DNA of 64,000 nt from Sialis fuliginosa. Its lineage: Eukaryota; Arthropoda; Insecta; Megaloptera; Sialidae. The notes beneath the pieces are model-generated. The model did not search any database, was not told where the DNA came from, and was given only the letters and a program-made list of their open reading frames with translations. This document shows, piece after piece, positions 4,968 to 52,577 of this stretch; position 1 is the stretch's first letter; each line of letters begins with the position of its first letter. Location of the stretch: NCBI GenBank assembly GCA_961205875.1, contig OY540817.1:17333001-17397000 (forward strand). Direction: 5' to 3'. The translations under genes were made by a program, and so were the position numbers.

Positions 4968-5521
4968 TCAGAACATATCTCCTCCGTTCTCCTGGACCTG
5001 GGGCATTTGCTCCTGATGCTGATTCTGCTGAAGATGCATAAGACTGTTTGCATTCGCGTCGCAACTTCCACCTACCGTCGAATTCATGGCCTCCTGGTGA
5101 TTATTAACCATATTCGCTAACGACCTAACCTGCAGTAAAAGACCATGGTTCAACAACTTCGCCTGATGCTCTTGAGCCTTCGCTCTCAAGCACGCGATAG
5201 AGTTATTTCTAAATACTTCAGGATCATCTACGAAGTTATATCCAGTTGGATGCTGACTGTGAAGATCGTTAACGTTTCCTGAAGAAGTTTGCTGATGGTG
5301 TTTGGAAGAAGCAGAATTCGCGGGAGTAGGCGACGTGCACGGTGTCGATGATGCAGGGATCGTTGATACCGGCGTTGTTGTGTTGGTGTTGTTGTTGCAC
5401 CCGTTGCCGCTGGTGTCGCTAGTGTCTGTTCGCAAGGATGTGGAGTCTTCGTGGTCACTGCTCGTGGTATTGTCCTGCTCCTTCAGGTGTTCGGCAGCCT
5501 CTAGAGATTTACGGTGCATCC
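4968..5521 (-). CDS. Vsx: Vsx homeobox gene, last coding exon (CVC end, linker, OAR)
   Basis: This is the terminal coding exon of a CVC-type paired-like homeodomain transcription factor, a nuclear regulator of visual-system neurons in known relatives. It opens after the acceptor TTACAG with GG, completing the Gly codon begun at 7438, and continues MHRKSLEAAEHLK, the end of the CVC domain. A Ser/Thr/Asp/Asn-rich linker follows (about exon residues 17-80). Then comes SIACLRAKAQEHQAKLL (residues 107-123), an OAR motif close to that of vertebrate Vsx2/Chx10. The tail is Gln/Asn-rich and ends GGDMF before TGA. The exon is 554 bp and encodes 183 residues after the split codon. It is clearly more GC-rich than its surroundings. 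The OAR favours the Vsx2/Chx10 branch, but insect Vsx1 and Vsx2 cannot be separated here. Confidence 0.95.
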
Positions 5522-5962
5522 CTGTAAGATATTCTTGATTATCTGTTTGTTATGGGAGTAACATAGATTGATTGAAAGTAAATATCAGGTGGATTTTAAA
5601 AAAATGTCTCCTATTTGACGATATAGTACTTTGGAACTATAAATCACAAAAACTTCAGAAATCTAAGGTCTTAAAATGTTTAGTATTTTTTTTCATCTAT
5701 TTACTTATTAGTTATAACCTTTCTTCTCTTTTTAATTAAAATTGTAACTGTTTTTGAGTTCACTTTACAAAATCATGTCGGTAAAATAGAAATCAGATGT
5801 TTACAGTAAAAGAAGAAATTGGGAGATAAACTACTTTATAAATTGATTCTTTGATTAAAAATTACAATTGTAAAATTAAATTAAAAGGGTTGTAAGTTGT
5901 AACACTTGTAACTATAAAACGATTAATTGAATTTATTTGAATTATTTATTTGTAACACTCCA

Positions 5963-7307: not shown

Positions 7308-7437
7308 TTATATAACTTCTTTTAAGGTTTAAATTTTTTTCCTCACTTTAAATTAGTGTTAGTGTGTGTACTATGATATATATATAGTTATTTATTTGTT
7401 GTTGGTAGCAGCGTTCCTTACCCGGGCGCAGACATAC

Positions 7438-7612
7438 CTAAGAGCCAAGGCGCGACGCTCTCGTTCTCCTTGGCGCTCTTGAGGATGGTCTCGGGTAGCG
7501 GAAGTGAGTGCCGCACCATCGCGCCGTACAGCCCGTACTCTGCCATGATTGTACTCCGGCCCCAACACTTCTCCGTTTTGCGCCACTTCGCACGACGATT
7601 CTGGAACCACAC
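7438..7612 (-). CDS. Vsx: Vsx homeobox gene, exon with homeodomain helix 3 and CVC domain
   Basis: The acceptor TTTATTTCAG is followed by GTG TGG TTC CAG, starting [15 protein letters not shown], homeodomain residues 47-60. Residue 50 is Gln and the recognition-helix signature WFQNRR is intact. Next comes [18 protein letters not shown] followed by [19 protein letters not shown] and SVAPWLL. This is the CVC domain that defines the Vsx/Chx10/ceh-10 group. The exon is 175 bp, opens in phase 0 and closes in phase 1 at TTAG|GTATGT. Joined to 5521 it makes GGG ATG CAC, restoring LLGMHRKSLEAA. It therefore sits between a 44.7-kb and a 1.9-kb intron. A second GTAAGG lies 16 bp past the chosen donor. 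Confidence 0.97.
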
Positions 7613-7910
7613 CTGAAATAAAAAACAAAACACATCTTTAATATTACGTATTGCAAATAAATGTTGTAACTCTCACCTATGCCGTGTTTTGACAAAAAAA
7701 AAAAAAAACAACAGCAACACGGTGTTTTAAAACACTACGTATTTAAAAATGTATAGGGTTGATTGCACTTTTGGAAAATTTTAATCGTTTTCTCGTTTCA
7801 CTAGATGGATGTAAAGATATGTACCTACGAAATATGCGGTTTTTCTTAATTACATTCAATTATGTTTTTACACGATTTTGAAATAGCACGGTCGATAACA
7901 ATGAAATAAA

Positions 7911-27579: not shown

Positions 27580-27825
27580 CCCGGGAAAAATGAAGTGATC
27601 AAATTAGATCGTGATAGATCTGCATTTTGAGATATCTTTTTTCACTGGTTTTTGATCTGTGGAGACCTAAAGATCTACAACGATCTATAAAGATCTACAA
27701 TGATCTACAAAGATCTACAACGATTTACAAAGATCTCTGAAGATCGTTGTAGATCTTTGCAGGTCTCCTCAGATGAAAAACCAGTTAAAAATATGATCAC
27801 TTCAGATCTGAAATTTTTTCCAGGG
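27580..27825. mobile_element. 246-bp TA-flanked MITE with AGATCTACAACGATCT units
   Basis: The left end is CCCGGGAAAAATGAAGTGATC and the reverse-complemented right end CCCTGGAAAAAATTTCAGATC, each next to TA. The centre (about 27665-27765) is a degenerate tandem and partly palindromic array of AAAGATCTACAACGATCT. The ends and TA flanks suggest a Tc1/mariner-type non-autonomous element. Confidence 0.6.
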
Positions 27826-35660: not shown

Positions 35661-35670
35661 ATTTACTTTA

Positions 35671-36298
35671 TTTTTAGTAAAATTGTACAAAAATTAAAAG
35701 GTTTACAAATACCAGGCAATTTATCTGAACACTTTATCAGTTTTTATTTAAATTGTAAAATAATTAACTACTTTTGATGAATTTAGCACGAGAAAGCACT
35801 GTGCATTTACTTGGCAGATGTTTCTTTTTTAAATTCATTCATACCGCAAATATACAACAGAAAAAAACTTTATATAGTTGAGTATACGTATCTGTACAAC
35901 AAACTCCGGGTCATATTAATCCAGGCGGGTGTCTCTGGAGACCACACACACAACAAACAGACATACAGATTTACTTTCGCATTTATAATATTAATATGGA
36001 TTTTTAGTAAAATTGTATACAAATTAAAAGGTTTACAAATACCAGGCAATTTATCTGAACACTATCAGTTTTTATTTAAATTGTAAAATAATTAACTACC
36101 TTTCATGAATTTAGCGACAAAGCACTGTGCATTTACTTGGCAGATGTTTATTTTTTAAATTCATTCATATCAAATATACAACAGAAAAAAAATGATATAG
36201 TTGAGTATACGTATCTGTACAACAAACTCCGGGTCATATTAATCCAGGCGGATGTCTCTGGAGACCACACACACAAACACACTCATATACACACTGAC
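35671..36298. repeat. 330-bp tandem duplication of repeat C end
   Basis: Copy one starts at 35671 and copy two at 36001, both with TTTTTAGTAAAATTGTA, ACAAATACCAGGCAATTTAT, GCACTGTGCATTTACTTGGC and CTCCGGGTCATATTAATCC. They are highly alike by eye. Copy one ends TTTCGCATTTATAATATTAA, a well-known lepidopteran repeat phrase. The two 91-codon frames come from the duplicated sequence and have no recognisable domain. Confidence 0.8.
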
Positions 36299-43270: not shown

Positions 43271-44524
43271 TACATATATACATAATTCATAAGTAAATCT
43301 CATGCAGTACCTACATTTATACATATAACATATCATAATTCATCTCTGTGATTTCATTGGTGCCGTAACTACTTGCTGCAAACACTTGAATGTCATTCAG
43401 TAGAAAATAATGACAACAATTACTTATTCTTCAGCAGACATATTTGCATTTACAGTCTCAAATGACAACGAAAATACTTATGCCAAATAATAGCATTTCA
43501 TAATCGCTAACAAGCAAATATAGCACTTGTTTATCTCACTCCAATTCACGAGTATTATCTTAACCGTCCTTGTCTAACTATACTTCAATGTAAATAAAAC
43601 CCATGTACTAGAAAAGGAAAAATATATTATGTATTACATTCCTTAATAAACTGGTCTCTTTCTTCGAGTAAGTTTTAATGAAATGATGCAGTAATGGTAT
43701 TATGCAAAAACAAATCTTTCTTCATAAACAAAGAGGGGGATATAGCTTCATGCATGCATCCGATATACCCATCTCTTTTTTTTAAATCCATAATTCAAAA
43801 CTTGTCATAATGCATATGCATTTTTTTACCACGAACAATCGAGACTCCACCCTTACTGTAATTTTACGACTTTTGATTGGTCGAAACAAATGCATTCAGT
43901 GTGAAAATTTACACGGGGAAGGGGGTGCGACGTAATGATGTAGTCATTGAGTCATTCCATTTATAATCATCAAATTTATTAAAATATAGAAGTTGCACCA
44001 TTTTTAATTTTGATGAAAGTTTAATCAGTTGTTATTATACTTATTAGATAGCAGAAACTGTACTTAGAAAAATTTTAATGGCCATAGTTCGGGGGTGGTG
44101 ACCGTTTTACCCTCTTAAGATATGAAGATTTCGTCGATTTTCAACGTTTTTTCAACTCGCTATAGCACGCGTTCTAATAAAGCAATTACAACGAGCTTAA
44201 TGTCATTTGAAAGACTAAAGAATCTAGTTTTAATTGATCTAGCACAATTTAAAGTTTAAATTATTTTTTTTGTAGATAGAGGCTTTTCAAATTTATTAAT
44301 AAAATTGTCATTTTTTCCATTTTTCGAAATTTATTGTGGCTCTAAGGTTAAACTGAGAAAGCTATAATTATGTGTAAGTTATGTTCATTTATAGTACTCA
44401 GTACCCACAAAAAATCAGCTTGATTGATGCACATCTTTTATTAAAAAAATTTAGTTAAATATCGCAAAAATCACGAAAACACCAAAATCAGCTGTTTTCG
44501 AAGCAAAAAAAAGTTATGTGGGGG

Positions 44525-45190
44525 ACGAGATAAAATTCTGAATTTTTTTTTACAAATGCTCTAAATAGTTATCTTTGAAGGCCTTATAGATTCGTTTTGT
44601 TATTTTCATTTTTATAGCAACCAGATTTTTTTTTAAATTTAAAAAAATACGAAAACTTCAAAAACGGTTATTTTTAAACATAATACAAAAATATGTTGGG
44701 CACGAGATAGAATTCTGAATTTTTTTTTACAAATGCTCTAAATAGTTATCTTTGAAGGCCTTAATGATTCGTTTTGTTATTTTCATTTTTATAGCAACCA
44801 GAATTTTTTTTTTATTTAAAAAAATACGAAAACTTCAAAAACGGTTATTTTTTAAACATAATACAAAAATATGTTGGGCACGAGATAAAATTCTGAATTT
44901 TTTTTTTACAAATGCTCTAAATAGTTATCTTTGATGGCCTTATAGATTCGTTTTGTTATTTTCATTTTAATAGCAACCAGAATTTTTTATTTAAATTTAA
45001 AAAAATACGAAAACTTCAAAAACAGCTATTTTTTAAACAATACAAATATATGTTGGGCACGAGATAGAATTCTGATTTTTTTTTTATAATTGCTTTAAGT
45101 AATTAACTTTAAAGGCCAATTGGCTTTTTCTTGTTATTTTCATTTTTCTAGTCACCAGACTTTTTTTAAATCCTTAAAAGTGTAAAAACT
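44525..45190. repeat. 178-bp tandem units in the left foldback arm (four units)
   Basis: The marker ACGAGATA(G/A)AATTCTGA recurs at 44525, 44702, 44880 and 45059, spacings of 177, 178 and 179. Each unit contains AAATGCTCTAAATAGTTATC, TTGAAGGCCTTA and ACGAAAACTTCAAAAACGG. The fourth unit is the most diverged. Confidence 0.92.
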
Positions 45191-45659
45191 CAGATATTGT
45201 ACTAATCAATACTAAAGAGAATCTAAATTAACAAATCTTACACTTAATAATAGTATTTACTACTTCGGATTGAGTTTGATATTTTTTCAACTTTTTGATC
45301 AATTTCATTTTTTCTCTTTGATAGGTAAAGGTAGTTTTTTAATTACAACAGGAGATTCATTCAAAACAGCACAAACTTGGTTGATTTTTCAAATACAGGG
45401 TTCAAATATTTCATCCCTGATATAGTAAATAATGAATTTTTTTGGACATCACGACAATATTCATAATGAAAAGAAATATTTATAAAAAACATATAATATT
45501 AAACCTTTCAGAGAAGAATAATAACTATACTTCAAAATCAATTTAACAATTAATATATTTGTATGCTTTAACATCATAAATATAATAATAATAATAATAA
45601 TAATATTAATAATATAACACATAATTTTTTTTTGTTTATTTTCGAAAATACATGATTTT

Positions 45660-46147
45660 GGAGATTTTACACTTTTAAGGAATTAAAAAAAATCTGGTAA
45701 CTAGAAAAATGAAAATAACATGAAAAAGCCAATTGGCCTTTAAAGTTAATTACTTAAAGCAATTATAAAAAAAATTTCAAAATTCTATCTCGTGCCCAAC
45801 ATATTTTTGTATTGTTTAAAAAATAACCGTTTTTGAAGTTTTCGTATTTTTTTAAATTTAAAAAAAATTCTGGTTGCTATAAAAATGAAAATAACAAAAC
45901 GAATCATTAAGGCCTTCAAAGATAACTATTTAGAGCATTTGTAAAAAAAAATTCAGAATTCTATCTCGTGCCCAACATATTTTTGTATTATGTTTAAAAA
46001 TAACCGTTTTTGAAGTTTTCGTATTTTTTTAAATTTAAAAAAAAAATCTGGTTGCTATAAAAATGAAAATAACAAAACGAATCTATAAGGCCTTCAAAGA
46101 TAACTATTTAGAGCATTTGTAAAAAAAAAATCAGAATTTTATCTCGT
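45660..46147. repeat. 178-bp tandem units in the right foldback arm (three units)
   Basis: The reverse-complement marker TCTCGTGCCCAAC, or TCTCGTCCCCCAC at the outer unit, recurs at 45788, 45964 and 46142, spacings of 176 and 178. The right arm has one unit fewer than the left, which accounts for most of the difference in arm length. Confidence 0.9.
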
Positions 46148-46866
46148 CCCCCACATAACTTTTTTTTGCTTCGAAAACAGCTGATTTTGGTGTTTTCGTG
46201 ATTTTTGCGATATTTAACTAAATTTTTTTAATAAAAGATGTGCATCAATCAAGCTGATTTTTTGTGGGTACTGAGTACTATAAATGAACATAACTTACAC
46301 ATAATTATAGCTTTCTCAGTTTAACCTTAGAGCCACAATAAATTTCGAAAAATGGAAAAAATGACAATTTTATTAATAAATTTGAAAAGCCTCTATCTAC
46401 AAAAAAAATAATTTAAACTTTAAATTGTGCTAGATCAATTAAAACTAGATTCTTTAGTCTTTCAAATGACATTAAGCTCGTTGTAATTGCTTTATTAGAA
46501 CGCGTGCTATAGCGAGTTGAAAAAACGTTGAAAATCGACGAAATCTTCATATCTTAAGAGGGTAAAACGGTCACCACCCCCGAACTATGGCCATTAAAAT
46601 TTTTCTAAGTACAGTTTCTGCTATCTAATAAGTATAATAACAACTGATTAAACTTTCATCAAAATTAAAAATGGTGCAACTTCAGCACCTTGATGATTTT
46701 ATATGGAATGACCCCATTAGCAAATTTGCATGCTTTTGGTGTAAAGAAAAATCTATTATTTTTACGTAGTTATTGCTGCATTATTCAGGGGTGGTTCGAA
46801 TATATTCTGATATATACTTCTTAAGAGGTATCAAGAGAAGTTAAAATACGAAATTTAAAAAAAAAA

Positions 46867-52182: not shown

Positions 52183-52343
52183 ATCTATGGCCACTGTATA
52201 TAGTTGCGTCTATAATCTCATAAAAATTATTTATAAGTTACCTGACAGTTAAAATAGTTAAACCCTTTCATTAAAATCATACTTCATAAACCATGGAACA
52301 AAAAACATAAAACATATGTTGAAAATAATGAGAAATAACTGAC

Positions 52344-52467
52344 CTGTATCCTATCTTCGGGCAGATCCGTTTTAAGGGACAGCATTTCCCTGGCGTAGAC
52401 ATCCGGGTAGTGCGCGTCCTTAAACGCCTTCTCCAGCTCCTCCAGCTGGTATGAGGTGAAGATCGTC
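52344..52467 (-). CDS. Vsx: Vsx homeobox gene, main homeodomain exon
   Basis: The acceptor CTCCTGCGGCAG is followed by G ACG ATC TTC ACC; the first G completes the Arg codon (homeodomain residue 5) begun in the exon at 53553. The exon then encodes [29 protein letters not shown] and [12 protein letters not shown], homeodomain residues 6-46, covering helices 1 and 2 and the start of helix 3. It ends CAG|GTCAGT in phase 0. The text is essentially the canonical Vsx/Chx10 homeodomain, and no unusual residue stands out. The 124-bp exon is GC-rich against AT-rich introns. The exon joins across 44.7 kb to VWFQNRR at 7612. Confidence is very high because both junction phases and the protein text agree. 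Confidence 0.97.
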
Positions 52468-52577
52468 CTGCCGCAGGAGCAAAAAAACCACGTAGGGTAG
52501 TTAGCACGTTCGGGACAGTTTACACTAACTTTTACATCTGTGCGTACTCACAACACTACAGATTTTTTAATTTAATA

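Follow-up and report, generated by a model that had tools for sequence, protein, structure and literature searches.

At positions 43949-46714 of the window (the whole stretch of 64,000 nucleotides analyzed here, which lies on contig C9 of a 392-Mb assembly in 20 contigs) sits a non-coding inverted repeat of 2,766 bp, which raises the question of what sort of mobile element it is, which enzyme moves it, and what keeps its two arms alike. Most of what is known of foldback elements comes from Drosophila, in many cases from few complete copies and without a known mobilizer, as in the account of Tetris in PMC4079207. In the genome examined here, closely similar full-size copies number at least 47 and are accompanied by short deleted forms and a coding relative, which opens three questions to testing: by what route a single subterminal block gives rise to longer arms, what keeps the two arms alike, and whether the number of units has an effect on transposition.

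Anatomy of the element and its place in a homeobox gene

The two arms, of ~1,242 and ~1,054 bp, align over 1,113 columns with 1,040 identities and 29 gap columns, and their longest stretch without gaps extends over 707 nt at 96% identity. On the left, the 40-bp tip (43949-43988, plus strand) is of a GAG type and reads GAGTCATTCC, its first 24 nt being identical in all 20 copies analyzed below; on the right, a 31-bp tip of a GGG type (46684-46714, minus strand) reads GGGTCATTCC, begins with GGGTC, and shares its first 24 nt with both ends of the coding relative, L051. Whereas the initial annotation had taken the tips to be alike, left and right differ at 17 of 40 columns in this copy, and the same asymmetry (17 or 18 of 40 columns) is found in each of the 20 copies. 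Next to the tips lie the outer arm modules (43989-44504 on the plus strand and, as delimited by arm alignments, 46158-46683 on the minus strand), which differ from one another at 0 of 480 alignment columns; the left module is 93.7% and 94.5% identical to the two arms of L051.

Further inward, four units of ~178 bp make up the left array (44515-45167, plus strand; spacings of 177, 178, and 179 bp), as read from a self-comparison and a tolerant unit count, and three make up the right array (45685-46157, minus strand; spacings of 176 and 178 bp), which is the inverse of the left. The innermost arm stretches (44985-45191 and 45661-45867) enclose an AT-rich loop of 469 nt (45192-45660) that is common to most of the family; when the loop stretch (45191-45661) is folded as single-stranded DNA, 98 of 100 shuffles fold equally well or better. 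No stop-to-stop frame of at least 90 aa was found in this copy, a frame of 98 to 106 aa occurs in 8 of the remaining 19, and an Rfam search of the window gave no match. Long inverted arms thus make up most of a non-coding element, and the tandem repeats within them vary in number between copies, both of which are structural characters of the foldback class. Our analysis agrees with the initial annotation on this plan, including the end coordinates, the four and three units, and the length of the loop.

The element lies within the ~44.6 kb that separate two homeodomain pieces of a paired-like homeobox gene, which bears out its earlier placement in an intron of a developmental gene. One piece, at 52287-52547 on the minus strand, covers profile positions 3-46 with 46.7 bits; the remaining positions, 45-57, are found at 7421-7672 on the same strand, where the 18 bits fall short of the 22.9 that Pfam sets as cut-off. 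An OAR motif (4971-5549, minus strand) lies downstream of the homeodomain pieces. The stretch after the homeodomain resembles the CVC region of Vsx genes. Kilobase hairpins in introns, such as the one in this homeobox gene, would be candidate sources of double-stranded RNA and candidate inversion breakpoints. Elsewhere in the window are a tandem duplication at 35670-36276 (1.9 copies of a 323-bp unit, 94% match) and a short array at 27669-27736 with a 10/20-bp unit of the AAAGATCTAC type.

Copies, ends, and target duplications across the genome

Querying the genome with the element returned 307 matches (40 of 315 candidates being scored), and from ~40 elements grouped by eye among the scored candidates, the best-ranked 20 were analyzed together with 800-bp flanks. 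Every one of the 20 copies has GAGTCATTCCATTTATAATCATCA at its start and, at its end, the reverse complement of GGGTCATTCCA(T/A)ATAAAATCATCA. In 19 of them, the 4-mers immediately flanking these ends are identical on the left and right, and the exception, L039, fits a duplication of 5 bp; when flanks were re-paired at random in 20,000 trials, the mean was 1.18 matches and the maximum 7. The CATT that stands in the window at 43945-43948 and again at 46715-46718, which had been noted as a possible duplication, is thus one instance of a 4-bp duplication that is exact in nearly every copy. All 20 copies have A or T as the third base of the duplicated target, the flanks have a G+C content of 29.6%, and no clear target motif beyond AT-richness was found in the 20 copies.

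The initial annotation had envisaged genome searches with the tips and the 178-bp unit. The tip pattern, allowing at most one mismatch, occurs at 296 places (reversed control, 0). Among the 100 tip matches listed out of these 296, 86 form 43 facing pairs and 14 are single; 40 of these pairs combine a GAG with a GGG tip, and three have GGG at both ends. Of the 40 GAG/GGG pairs among the matches listed, 38 span 2.6 to 4.1 kb and two are short (370 and 565 bp). Together with nine copies fetched from other contigs, these 38 pairs, which lie on contigs C1 to C3, bring the full-size copies that carry both tips to at least 47. The unit pattern, for its part, matches 1,112 times (556 on each strand; control, 0). 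A satellite array was considered as a source of these matches and rejected: the 100 unit matches listed, all on contig C1, form runs of at most eight per strand in clusters the size of an element.

By the tolerant motif count, arms carry from 3 to 18 units across the 20 copies. The strongest array asymmetry among them is that of L037 (G000:C4:26961147-26966366), which has 18 units on the left and 3 on the right. The loop is more constant, with at least 399 of 440 nt kept in 18 of the 20 fetched copies (the exceptions being L049 and L050) and with 94 to 100% identity at the 40 places scored in the genome out of 92 candidates. The left arms of the 20 copies differ by a mean of 1.8%, and several copies at separate sites are virtually identical (L031 and L032, for example, at 99.5%), which indicates that the family moved recently. 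An assembly artefact, which the initial annotation had singled out as the circumstance that would undo its reading, is ruled out by the 20 copies, since they sit at different sites within their own flanks and 19 of them have exact 4-bp duplications. We conclude that the element belongs to a young family with defined ends, a 4-bp duplication, many near-identical copies, no coding capacity, a variable number of units, and a loop that is mostly shared.

Several known foldback systems invite comparison. In the FB elements of Drosophila, the inverted arms consist of tandem repeats with very short units, and the duplication is 9 bp. Tetris, from Drosophila virilis, is described in PMC4079207 as a non-coding foldback whose long terminal inverted repeats (TIRs) combine a flanking part with a variable array of ~220-bp units around a non-coding middle; the duplications given there are 8 to 10 bp, as opposed to 4 bp here, and Tetris has, according to that source, three copies of complete structure but no coding partner, in contrast with the numerous copies and the coding relative in the present genome. 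Galileo, a member of the P superfamily in Drosophila, likewise has foldback-like long TIRs lengthened by internal tandem repeats and recruited inner sequence, but its duplication is 7 to 8 bp (consensus GTATTAC) and its transposase is of the P type (PMC4168063). The plan of our element matches those of Tetris and of the extended forms of Galileo and is, as such, already known; what sets the family apart from both is the 4-bp duplication. With 19 of 20 duplications at exactly 4 bp and 1 of 20 at 5 bp, membership in a Tetris-type group was rejected, as was membership in the P superfamily along with Galileo.

A coding relative and candidate sources of the transposase

L051, one of the GGG/GGG pairs among the listed tips, is 7,230 bp long, has GGGTC ends, and is flanked by AATT on both sides. 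Its outer arms are 93.7 to 94.6% identical to the outer arm of the foldback elements, and it carries the ~178-bp unit about once, after its left arm (at about 574-760 of L051). A BLAST search with the loop found no match in L051 or in L052, a shorter relative (G000:C1:609881-611789) that forms a 1.9-kb palindrome, both halves of which match the right end of L051. Under the Repbase rule for superfamilies, as given in PMC4455052, the terminal 11 bp should agree with at most one mismatch and duplications should be of the same length. Compared with both ends of L051 over these 11 bp, the right foldback tip has no mismatch and the left tip has one, within what the rule allows; the AATT of L051, being palindromic and part of a recurrent flank, is weak as a match in duplication length. 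On the minus strand of L051, two overlapping frames (854 and 616 aa) encode what family B (the L054 type) holds as one equivalent protein, indicating that the protein of L051 has been split by a frame change and that L051 itself may be inactive.

In family B, the protein occupies a single open frame of 1,551 aa and is 47% identical to that of L051. The frame, a putative transposase that appears intact, occurs at 11 places, namely L054 and ten further ones. One end of family B starts with GCCCAGTCAT, and a 25-nt pattern of that end matches 11 places. Seven copies, when compared in matching orientation, show no difference over ~4.18 kb as far as the 3' end and have different flanks, so that family B was probably active until recently. 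Contig C14 (G000:C14, at ~4.28-4.29, 5.19, and 6.02 Mb) has mostly interrupted pieces that are 58 to 88% identical to the L051 protein.

Our best guess for the superfamily of this transposase is Academ, and within it the lineage AcademX, whose nuclease is of the XPG type. AcademX elements make duplications of 3 or 4 bp, the length being linked to the encoded nuclease (PMC10045372), and the 4 bp of the foldback family fall within this range; Academ as a whole is counted among the DDD/E superfamilies (PMC9587614). The L051 and L054 proteins have in common a series of invariant acidic residues (D247, D287, D356/D357/D359, D380/D382, and GCD438) followed by a Cys-rich tail. In order and spacing, the acidic series is close to that of FEN1/XPG proteins, the nuclease fold of the partner being putative. 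A Pfam search of the partner proteins gave nothing significant (best E value, 0.031, for DUF3800, which falls below the cut-off), and the best PDB match (E value, 0.0085) was to a TNF-family ligand, which we take as chance, with all others weaker. The XPG_I model matches the genome at four places elsewhere, none of them a locus of a partner protein, and a search of viral contigs confirmed no relatives of the protein. We also compared the partner proteins with a profile of 20 archaeal FEN1 proteins (20 of 53 FEN1 loci, in three of which an internal stop was treated as X): the score was 20.9, and of 60 column shuffles two exceeded it, the highest at 24.05. A pattern built on the acidic motifs is weak as evidence, having been drawn up post hoc and adjusted twice: its first two versions match 0 of 20 FEN1 proteins and the loosened third matches 14, while all three match both putative transposases and none of 40,000 shuffles of each. 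Among the titles and openings of abstracts listed, in a literature coverage outside of which most subscription journals lie, no Academ element with foldback arms and tandem units is mentioned.

Several other sources of the transposase have to be weighed against AcademX. Because PMC4079207 places most foldback elements with Mutator and because Tetris equals our element in plan (an outer domain, tandem units of similar length, and a non-coding middle), a Foldback/Tetris-type element of the Mutator superfamily is one candidate, and it is the one that the comparison with Drosophila foldbacks in the initial annotation suggests. Close kinship with those foldbacks is not supported here. We regard this candidate as very improbable, given that the 4-bp duplications here fall short of the 8 to 10 bp of Tetris and that the proteins of L051, the candidate mobilizer, match no Mutator transposase in Pfam at E values up to 1; since PMC10045372 gives 4 to 10 bp for the whole IS256/MuDR group, length disfavors Mutator at large rather than excludes it. 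A transposase from a Sola2-type or other 4-bp-duplicating superfamily accords better with the duplications, as those of Sola2 are likewise 4 bp and AT-rich (PMC3627910), and the two FEN1 shuffles that outscored the partner proteins leave the competing nuclease reading without statistical support. Such a source nevertheless seems unlikely to us, as the acidic motif series and Cys-rich C terminus of the partner look unlike such transposases. We likewise doubt that the foldback elements are moved by the family B transposase in place of L051-type enzymes: the family B frame is uninterrupted at its 11 places and seven copies are identical, whereas the L051 frame is split, but the known end of family B does not start with GRGTCATTCC and its 25-nt end pattern is confined to 11 places.

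Another alternative concerns the ends of L051, which sit in a recurrent sequence context. L051 and the two other GGG/GGG elements found among the listed tips have in common the 15 nt just outside the tip, and this junction of tip and outside 15 nt occurs at 46 places with 0 to 3 mismatches (the two of L051 and 44 more). Farther outward runs a sequence that we term X, present at 51 and 54 places by two patterns; a block of X is also repeated within L051, ~824 bp further in. X flanks L052 on both sides in inverted orientation, whereas beyond ~16 nt L051 has it on the left only. Given this recurrent context, a larger element may contain L051: either the insertion of L051 into a relative bearing X produced a composite that went on to spread, or GGGTC is an internal sequence of a larger coding element, in which case the foldback family would have adopted an internal sequence as its new end. 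We consider the latter possible, if rather doubtful; the recurrence of the junction and of X speaks for it, as does a search of the genome for a joined empty X site at up to 3 mismatches, which found none, whereas the one-sided X and the AATT on both sides of L051 are as expected after insertion into an X-bearing relative. The ends of the foldback family are unaffected by this question, being fixed by the 19 of 20 exact duplications. The first of the C14 clusters (~4.28-4.29 Mb) also lies near copies of X.

On balance, the element is likely a member of a young non-autonomous foldback family of the cut-and-paste type, moved in trans by an enzyme of the L051 or B type that most likely belongs to AcademX.

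Copying of sequence from arm to arm within an element

Over the 480 columns of the outer arm, the mean left-right distance is 4.77 within elements and 8.47 between elements, and none of 100,000 permutations gave a value as low as 4.77. This test was made on 13 non-redundant elements or lineages of the 20, with 7 near-identical clones dropped. Changes private to a lineage are present in both arms in 8 cases and in one arm in 40, a count that omits 3 private changes also found in L051/L052. The low distance within elements and the private changes shared by both arms show that, within single elements, one arm has repeatedly, though incompletely, received sequence from the other. No such homogenization has affected the tips; conversion may end short of the tip, or the difference between tips may be under selection.

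A mechanism consistent with these observations would run as follows. The transposase would bind the tip and outer arm, excise the element, and insert it with a 4-bp stagger, the enzyme being supplied in trans by relatives of L051, which share the tip and outer arm with the foldback elements, or by the cousin family B. The arms may have grown by amplification of the unit that L051 carries about once, with unequal exchange or slippage later changing the number of units. The arms, paired in a hairpin or a repair intermediate, would be kept alike by gene conversion that stops before the tip. By analogy, the repeated unit may add contacts for the transposase, as PMC4079207 reports to have been proposed for the repeats of Galileo.

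A more specific reading, tentative and roughly as likely as not, assigns this large and currently or very recently active foldback family to the 4-bp, XPG-nuclease lineage of the Academ type, with arms kept alike by continuing conversion, tips of 31 and 40 bp that are held asymmetric, and an array unit derived by amplification of the subterminal block that the coding element carries about once. Should the link to Academ prove correct, the foldback form would have arisen again in an unrelated lineage, besides Mutator and P, and the same genome would also hold a coding relative.

The palindrome L052 shows that one end has undergone inverted duplication in this lineage, which is a plausible first step toward a foldback. 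Together with eleven further pairs, L052 makes up a second family, ~1.9 kb long and with a GGG tip at either end, and in 11 of these 12 pairs, inverted X is found at the expected distance on both sides.
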